Part shown: positions 58,799 through 60,286 of the stretch, piece by piece | How positions within the stretch are numbered: the stretch's first letter is position 1 | Layout: the number at the start of each line of letters is the position of its first letter | Assembly (NCBI RefSeq): GCF_028583545.1 | Contig: NZ_CP087106.1 | Coordinates: forward strand, 434,001 to 498,000 | Direction of reading: 5' to 3' | DNA: 64,000 bases | Source: Methylobacterium sp. NMS14P | Lineage (GTDB): Bacteria > Pseudomonadota > Alphaproteobacteria > Rhizobiales > Beijerinckiaceae | Translations under genes and position numbers: made by a program | The notes under the pieces: model-generated | Databases searched by the model: none | What the model saw: the letters and a program-made list of their open reading frames with translations, nothing else | What the model was told of the DNA's origin: nothing

Positions 58799-60286
58799 TC
58801 AACCCTTGATCCGGGTCTCGGCGAGTTCGGACATGCAGGTGTCGTAGGGCGTGAACTCCACCCGGTCCGACACCGCGAACAGCGTGAACGGCGAGTACAG
58901 GAACAGGGCCTTGGCCTCGTCCTGCAGGTACCGCTCCACCTCGCGCACCACACCCTCCGTCCCGCTCTCCGGCGTATGCAGGAGCTTGTCGTAGAGGGCG
59001 TCGAACCTCGGATCCTCCGGACCTTGGCGCAGGGTCGCGTCCTTCCCGAAGAACTCGCGGTGCACGCAGGCCACCGGATATTGCGGCGTCCAGTCGAAGT
59101 ACCATTCGAGCTTGACGTCGAACTCCTCTGGCAGATCGCCCCGGTCGCTGACGAAGCGGCAGCCGAGGCCGACCTTGGCGAGGCACTGGCCGATGGCCTC
59201 CACCACGCCCTTCCAGGCGGGCGAGGCCACGAAGACCAACTCCCGTCCCCCGAGCCCCAGGCCGTCGAGCGTGCGCTTGGCACCCTCGGGGTCGTGCGGC
59301 ATCGGCTTCAGGCCCGGATCCGCGCCGTAGCGTCCGGGCTGGATGAAGGCCGGGATCACCGTGCCGTAGCCATGCGCCCCGTGCTGGAGCACGAAGGCCT
59401 GGTCGATAGCGAGGTTGAGCGCCCGGCGGGCCTCCGGGTTGCGCCAGGGCGAGTCCGGACGGTTTTCGTTGAAGACGCCCGTCAGGATCGTCTTCGCCTT
59501 CTTCGTCTGGATCTTGCCCTTGTCGCTCGCCGGGAAGGCGTGCGCCTCATCCGGCGTCAGGTCGAACACCACGTCGACCCGGCCGTCACCGGCCGCCACC
59601 GACTTGATGCCCTCGGCCTTGCCGATGACGTTGTCGTAGACGATCCGGACCGTCGGCCTGCGGGCCGGGTTCCAGTACGTCGGGTTGGGCTCCATGACCA
59701 CGCGGTCGGAGCGGCTATCGATGAGCGAGACGCCCTCGGTGAGCACGAACGGGCCAGTCCCCCACGGACCAGGCGCGTCGATGACTCACCAATGACCTTC
59801 AGCCGAGCCCGTCTTCGGGTCGACGAAGCCCCACTCGTTCCAGAACCGCGTCGACGGCAGGTGCATGCCGCGCAGCTTCATCAGCGCCGCGGAGTCCCCG
59901 CCGGGGAAGCGCATGCGGATGGTGCGCTCGTCCACCGCCTCACAGGTCACGTCCCGGGCGAAGTTTAGGAAGGCGCCCGGCGGGTGCGGGTTGGTCCATT
60001 CCTGAACCTTGTCGAAGCCGAGCTTGAACATCGCCGCGTTGAAGGGCTCGCCGTCCTGGTAGACCGCGTCCCGCATCTTCAGTTCAAGGGTCTCCTTGTC
60101 GAGCCAGCGCCAGCTCTCGGCGAGGCTCGGCTGGCCGATGCCGTCGTGGTCGACGCGGTTGGCCTCCTCCATCGTGTTCCAGGTGATGGAAAGCCAGTTC
60201 ACCGGCGACGGGTCGACCACCGTCACCGTGTTGTGGGGTCCCCAGGGCTGGCCGCCCCCCGGATCCCCGGTCGCTTGCGCGTCCAT
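58799..60286 (-). CDS. Solute-binding-protein (family 5)-fold protein with in-frame UGA; candidate selenoprotein
   Basis: One continuous 495-codon frame from the ATG at 60286 (GGAGGAG just upstream) to the stop at 58799, broken only by TGA at 59786-59788 (codon 167). The context reads KTGSAEGHW-U-VIDAPGPWGTGPF. Both sides match peptide/nickel-type binding proteins: NWLSITWNTMEEANRVDHDG, LKMRDAVYQDGEPFNAAMFK, then WGTGPFVLTEG, PNPTYWN and NLAIDQAF. It has no signal peptide, odd for this family, so it may act in the cytoplasm. A hairpin fitting the bacterial SECIS model follows the UGA, and selB is next downstream. The alternative is a simple nonsense pseudogene. Confidence 0.75.
59754..59772 (-). 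promoter_or_regulatory. Candidate bacterial SECIS hairpin
   Basis: On the coding strand CTGGTCC-GTGGG-GGACTGG forms a 7-bp stem (two G-U pairs) with a five-base loop that begins GU. The loop starts 21 bases after the UGA. The commonly used bacterial SECIS rules require a short apical loop with G in its first two bases, 16-37 bases from the UGA. Confidence 0.6.

Follow-up and report, generated by a model that had tools for sequence, protein, structure and literature searches.

Among the substrate-binding proteins of ATP-binding cassette (ABC) transporters, SaoX and SaoB (NF040735 and NF040727; Haft and Gwadz 2023) are described as selenoproteins (PMC13188914). In its accessible part, the same 2026 review gives 119 selenoprotein families in its Table 1, where the binding proteins are SaoX, SaoB and BtuF and substrate-binding protein (SBP) family 5 is not given for any family (PMC13188914). 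This study concerns a stretch of 64,000 nucleotides (nt) of Methylobacterium sp. NMS14P (contig NZ_CP087106.1, positions 434,001 to 498,000), hereafter the window, in which an SBP family 5 gene is interrupted by one in-frame UGA and adjoins a gene for the elongation factor SelB. Like SaoX and SaoB, the product of this gene is a substrate-binding-protein type predicted to carry selenocysteine (Sec). The motifs differ, with UxP and CUxxT in SaoX and SaoB and, in the SBP family, HW-U-V without an invariant Cys; moreover, no linked SelB is mentioned for SaoX and SaoB in the accessible text (PMC13188914), whereas the SBP family is linked to a SelB of its own type, here called SelB2. From sequence comparison, we predict with high confidence that the UGA of the SBP gene is decoded as Sec. 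It is also likely, on a joint reading of the evidence, that this decoding relies on the adjacent, dedicated SelB2 together with a hairpin behind the UGA, and that the Sec is a redox centre refilled by thioredoxin-type thiols.

The SBP gene (58799..60286, minus strand; 495 residues plus stop) runs from an ATG at 60286 to a final TGA at 58801-58799 and is predicted to encode a selenoprotein without a signal peptide. A preliminary description, made from the letters of the window alone, had claimed a strong ribosome binding site, a frame open on both sides of a single TGA at codon 167, two halves of one SBP family 5 protein, and a selB gene 57 bp downstream on the same strand. Each of these features was recovered. 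GGAGGAG (60289..60295, minus strand) lies 2 bases 5' of the ATG; the UGA at codon 167 (59786..59788, minus strand; EGHW-U-VIDAPGPWGTGPF), predicted to be read as Sec, is the only stop before 58801-58799; PF00496 gives one match across it (residues 52-375; score 117.6 bits, cut-off 32.4); and selB occupies 58741-56756 on the minus strand, a strand that the description had left unstated. The assignment to SBP family 5 rests on the PF00496 score and the predicted fold, which is modelled as a single fold across the UGA site. Compared with other proteins of this family (PF00496: GsiB, GbpA, DppA, NikA and AapF), the window form has no signal peptide and carries UGA at the site, and no ABC genes were found among the neighbours scanned. 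The description also held that such an arrangement was more than chance would suggest, which is true only in part. A search for TGA flanked on either side by at least about 150 open codons listed 20 places in the window, codon 167 among them. Since long open frames around a TGA are commonplace in this GC-rich window, the case for the SBP-gene UGA must rest on its conservation, and this does exceed chance.

In a tblastn search over 41 loci, the alignment spans codon 167 in 24; all 24 have TGA there (23 distinct genes including that of the window), at protein identities of 51-100%. These loci belong to Methylobacterium, Methylorubrum, two further genera of the family, and a metagenome-assembled genome (MAG) of Rhodospirillales. 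In a search of the genus, 22 of 111 genomes matched with 23 gene rows. A single internal TGA was present in 22 of these rows; the other row is a remnant that covers residues 1-85 and ends before codon 167. Each of the 22 full-length genes has one stop only. Recurrence of the UGA in other genomes, which the preliminary description had named as support for Sec, is thus the rule in this family. Carriers are rare in wider groups. At E 1e-30, a match was found in 3 of 298 genomes of the family and in 1 of 385 of the class; at E 1e-45, 2 of 397 genomes of the order matched, and the match in one of these two is a UGA-free relative, which is uninformative because it has a gap at the Sec site. A copy was also seen on the 658-kb plasmid pNYY1_1 of M. 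radiotolerans (NZ_CP090580.1), where a MarR gene, the SBP gene (97% identical) and selB lie together; the plasmid is typed mobilizable, an IS3 element lies just upstream of the group, and its gene table, which holds no pseudogenes, has no gene under the SBP.

The absence of a gene from that plasmid record and the splitting of the SBP gene by gene callers are what an ordinary pseudogene or a sequencing error would give. This explanation was considered and dropped as already refuted by the conservation of the UGA, and we regard it as negligible. The TGA recurs in all 24 loci from many assemblies, with no other internal stop in any of the 22 full-length genes, and both halves of the gene are under purifying selection: between the window gene and one homolog (L036), the nonsynonymous and synonymous rates are 0.140 and 0.735 before the UGA, and 0.313 and 0.711 after it. 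Synonymous sites behind the UGA are also constrained, as described below. Annotation itself appears to hide the family. A search of a database of 5.8 billion proteins gave 426 matches, and the 120 listed are 295-356 residues long, each covering at most 66% of the query, which is the share lying after the UGA. In 13 of 13 database relatives read out, the start lies after the UGA. Among the matches listed, therefore, annotation pipelines have cut the SBP family at the UGA.

A SECIS (selenocysteine insertion sequence)-like hairpin follows the UGA (59744..59783, minus strand), with its upper stem at 59753-59774, one bulged base, and the apical loop GUGGG at 59761-59765. Published constraints for bacterial SECIS (bSECIS) elements are a loop of 3-9 nt, an upper stem of 4-16 bp, G within the first two positions of the loop, a spacing of 16-37 nt from the UGA, and a minimum free energy of at most -7.5 kcal/mol, as given in the accessible part of the review (PMC13188914). 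The SBP hairpin satisfies them, with eight pairs and one bulge in the upper stem, a 5-nt loop with G first, a spacing of 20 nt, and -18.5 kcal/mol over 46 nt. Its apical part, GGUCC-GUGGG-GGAC, is unchanged in 22 of 22 aligned genes. Codon usage points to the same place: of all six-codon windows in the gene, that of codons 172-177 is the most unusual (mean surprise 2.58 bits, against a mean of 1.02 with a standard deviation of 0.30), and rare synonymous codons are frozen in the hairpin, namely GGT and GGG in 22/22 genes and ACT, which makes up 1.2% of the Thr codons in SBP genes, in 20/22.

One might still read the UGA as a true stop with two proteins made by re-initiation, or as a site of near-cognate readthrough (Trp or another residue) without selenium. 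Possible start codons exist after the UGA, which makes re-initiation conceivable, and the closest relatives that lack the UGA carry Gln or Gly at this position. Such readings leave no role for the SECIS-like hairpin, for the linked SelB, or for the selA and selC genes found in three of the loci, and the single PF00496 domain and single predicted fold run across the site. They are very improbable.

The genome has the machinery that Sec decoding requires, and here again the preliminary description, which had asked for selA, selC and selD, is supported in its reading of the gene as that of a selenoprotein: the UGA recurs, and all three genes are present. There is one SelA (552.9 bits), one SelD over the cut-off (405.5 bits), and one tRNA-Sec (anticodon UCA). 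Of ten genomic places listed by RF01852, two exceed the cut-off; the weaker of the two was rejected as a second tRNA-Sec, being read as tRNA-Ser by ARAGORN, which leaves one. The genome also has a formate dehydrogenase (FDH) alpha gene with one TGA. The SBP gene resembles this known type of Sec gene in having a UGA and a SECIS-like hairpin, with a SelB in the genome. The two differ in the hairpin loop, which reads GUGGG in the SBP gene and, in the two FDH types seen, AGUUU or AGUCU, and in the branch to which the corresponding SelBs belong. The second FDH type (L149-L153 and L155) likewise contains an in-frame UGA and a hairpin with an AGUYU loop. In another genome (G726), an FDH without internal stop was found, though SelB and SelA are retained there.

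SelB2 of the window (56756..58741, minus strand) is the client-linked type of selB product, predicted to serve the SBP gene. It matches TIGR00475 with 365.3 bits (cut-off 242.25), and PF00009, PF25461 and PF09107 are over cut-off. It aligns with the SelB of PDB 5lzb, presumably that of E. coli, over residues 1-623 with 331 bits; unlike that protein, it is a second SelB in 18 of the 20 carriers in the genus and is tied to one client. An intact SBP gene is present in 20 of the 111 genus genomes (21 genes), and a SelB of the SelB2 type lies in the locus in 21 of 21 cases. In 19 of them, both matches are on one strand, and 60-86 nt, with the stop codon counted, separate the end of the SBP match from the start of the SelB match; next to the two Methylorubrum genes, SelB2 is encoded on the other strand, and selA and selC lie in between. 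Eighteen of the 20 carrier genomes have a further, distant SelB elsewhere. M. pseudosasicola BL36 (taken as G708) was seen to hold two SBP-SelB2 pairs and a third, distant SelB. By a SelB search at E 1e-60, the 91 genus genomes without an intact SBP gene comprise 28 with one SelB, 63 with none, and not one with two. These 28 lone SelBs score at most 281 bits, whereas the gene-linked SelBs score at least 331, and the ten of them placed in the tree all fall with the distant type. An independent hint of linkage comes from contig sizes: the longest-contig sizes of 16 of the 120 SBP matches listed recur in the list of SelB matches, against 0-3 for shifted sizes.

The two types are also far apart in sequence. 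The window SelB is 34-38% identical to 26 of the 28 distant SelBs compared and 40% identical to L116 over a shorter stretch, so that 27 of the 28 lie at 34-40%; the remaining one, L077, is 44% identical and adjoins FDH in strain BTF04 (G727). By domains, whose bounds were set by hand in this analysis, the GTPase part is 40% identical between the types and winged helix 3 is 17% identical. In a tree of 24 SBP-linked SelBs, 29 others (27 distant ones and the two encoded beside selA and FDH, in G013 and G727) and nine database rows, the SBP-linked SelBs form one side of a branch with 100/100 support. The SBP-linked SelBs of G013 and BTF04 group with those of other hosts, not with the FDH-linked SelB of their own genome. 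An earlier tree without the FDH-linked SelB of G013 parted the same two types with lower support (93/75).

Two genomes, taken as Methylorubrum salsuginis and Methylorubrum suomiense (G713 and G757), have SelB2 as their sole SelB, and no FDH match was found in them (TIGR01553, E 1e-150). Here, selB2-selA-selC faces the SBP gene, and selD is also near in M. salsuginis. In the Rhodospirillales MAG, the order is SBP-selB2-selC-selA. In these three loci, the SBP gene thus lies in a module with three Sec genes. By comparison, of the 18 genomes with two SelBs, 17 have a UGA-containing FDH (that of NMS14P and 16 of the 17 others), and the sole exception, in which none was found, is a MAG of 85% completeness (G735). 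From the co-occurrence of the gene with SelB2, the 100/100 branch and the Methylorubrum genomes with SelB2 only, we infer a dedicated SelB/SECIS pair, in which each SelB would read only its own hairpin.

It may be asked whether Sec is inserted by two interchangeable SelBs, with SelB2 an extra copy that merely sits in the operon. In many bacteria, a single SelB serves several selenoproteins. Both SelBs in these genomes are full-length, and both hairpin loops have GU at the start and fit the general bSECIS model. However, SelB2 follows the gene in both occurrence and decay, and a second SelB was found in 0 of 91 genomes without the intact gene. In Methylobacterium sp. 2A (L041, 6001-7035), SBP residues 1-85 are directly followed by a C-terminal fragment of SelB2, and in strain J-070 about 190-203 SBP residues are left, with no SelB2 in the stretch examined. 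Neither of the two SBP remnants L040 and L041 has an intact SelB2 in the stretches examined. By sequence, the locus of 2A is a remnant of co-loss, and in both strains decay of the SBP gene is accompanied by decay of SelB2. Furthermore, the branching of SelB2 follows the client and not the host. Interchangeable SelBs are therefore an unlikely explanation, and a dedicated SelB2 is preferred. It is rather probable, with less confidence than for the decoding itself, that a cell with both SelBs has two orthogonal Sec channels, SelB1 with the AGUYU hairpin and FDH, and SelB2 with the GUGGG hairpin and the SBP-fold protein, which have tRNA-Sec, SelA and SelD in common; the client, which is without a close Cys counterpart, would form with SelB2 a moving cassette that also occurs on a mobilizable megaplasmid.

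According to this model, the C-terminal winged helices of SelB2 would bind the GUGGG hairpin and bring Sec-tRNA to the UGA of the SBP gene, while SelB1 would serve the AGUYU hairpin of FDH, and one set of SelA, SelD and tRNA-Sec may supply both. More tentatively, a small ligand may be held in the solute-binding fold, where the Sec could react with the ligand or with a peroxide. Because the chain has no invariant Cys, an oxidised Sec would need reduction from outside, possibly by TlpA and DsbD for the exported form and by cytosolic thiols for the form of the window. The window protein and 15 other Met-starting forms have no hydrophobic stretch in their first 40 residues (highest 11-residue hydrophobic mean 0.4-0.8 in the 16 leaderless forms); a leader is present in the two Methylorubrum forms and in L020. 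No ABC permease or ATPase genes were found among the neighbours scanned, a scan that covered part of the neighbours. A TlpA thioredoxin gene lies directly upstream of the exported forms (three loci), and in two of the three a DsbD gene is divergent. That the exported forms follow a TlpA gene suggests that the Sec of the SBP-fold protein is a thiol-fed redox centre, a function that is less certain than the decoding.

A different role is conceivable for the same Sec protein, in which the Sec residue would bind a metal or some soft substrate (nickel, mercury or a selenium compound) and the product would be a binding or sequestering protein. We consider this possible, though less probable than the redox role. 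The TlpA and DsbD genes beside the exported form point instead to a need for reduction, and an OhrR-type regulator gene lies directly upstream of the SBP gene in the window and in five named loci. In the window, this MarR-family gene (60480..60950, minus strand), a likely regulator judging from its sequence, encodes an LCFALY segment, which we take to be the OhrR sensing-Cys motif; its product scores 139.8 bits, below the NCBIfam OhrR cut-off of 200.

Several results weigh against the combined reading of Sec, dedicated SelB2 and thiol-fed redox centre. At the Sec site, the 26 UGA-free rows of one alignment (A2; of 33 new proteins, 26 reach the site, two start after it and five were omitted) have three Gln, 14 Gly, nine gaps and no Cys; in the Gln clade, the surroundings of the site are retained (EGHWQVLDGPGAWGTGPF). 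The interchange of Cys and UGA that the preliminary description had proposed as a check was accordingly not seen in any close form, and the one uncertain instance is a distant paralog in the same genome (L006, 26% identity), in which two aligners put Cys at the site; Sec was written as C in that alignment, a choice that favours this placement. An early idea that the family is entirely without a Cys relative was weakened by this paralog. Over 46 nt, the hairpin folds with ordinary energy (z -0.63; 53 of 200 shuffles are as good), while the energy of a 68-nt version is unusual (z -2.50). By raw codon identity the hairpin does not stand out, its best window being tenth of 387, and covariation is too sparse, as 9 of 15 pairs never vary and the score is reached by 144 of 500 shuffles. 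The bulged base is missing in the folds of L037 and L020, and L039 has identical letters there. No SelB is present on the 6.6-kb contig that bears one of the exported copies (L170). The service of the distant SelB to FDH rests on co-occurrence, with the neighbourhood seen in two genomes only (G013 and G727). In the stretches examined, neither TlpA nor DsbD was seen close to the cytosolic forms, so that support for the redox role comes from a minor branch.

Searches of the surroundings added little. A promoter and terminator scan gave no result. Rfam gave no match at gathering score over the window, and around the UGA it gave two matches only, to other RNA types and far under gathering score. 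Beyond selB, a small open frame (56290-56691, minus strand) with a C-terminal run of nearly all Met, Lys and Arg has no Pfam match at E 1e-6. It is followed by a molybdopterin oxidoreductase related to MsrP/SorA (54412-56213, minus strand), adjoining a cytochrome b561 gene. The IS21-type helper IstB (49579-50313, plus strand), part of a mobile element, lies about 6 kb past selB.

The preliminary description did not recall this protein family among the classic selenoproteins, and the comparison agrees: the family is absent from the accessible inventory of 119 families (PMC13188914) and from NCBIfam. In NCBIfam release 20.0, no model is over its cut-off for the window protein, and the ten families matched by 12 members of the SBP family (E 0.001) include no selenoprotein model, NF040735 and NF040727 among those absent. 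No published report of an SBP selenoprotein family or of a client-dedicated SelB was found in the literature searched, which leaves out most subscription papers. All known selenoproteins now appear to have Cys homologs, according to the accessible part of one study (PMC12013277), and the SBP family would be a near exception to this rule. The authors of that study state, in the same part, that one Sec predictor may drop selenoproteins without Cys homologs (PMC12013277). As annotators split the gene and such a predictor may drop it, the family has likely been missed.

In sum, a further selenoprotein family is predicted here, one that is likely to escape both gene finders and Sec predictors. The probable dedicated second SelB is likely the greater surprise than the selenoprotein itself. 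If the proposed pairing is true, cells of these bacteria would contain two SelBs, each with one client and one hairpin type, and Sec insertion would be partitioned by elongation factor. The SelB2 pair would then be a natural orthogonal SelB/SECIS pair usable in protein engineering, and the coevolution of SelB and SECIS would become directly testable within one host.
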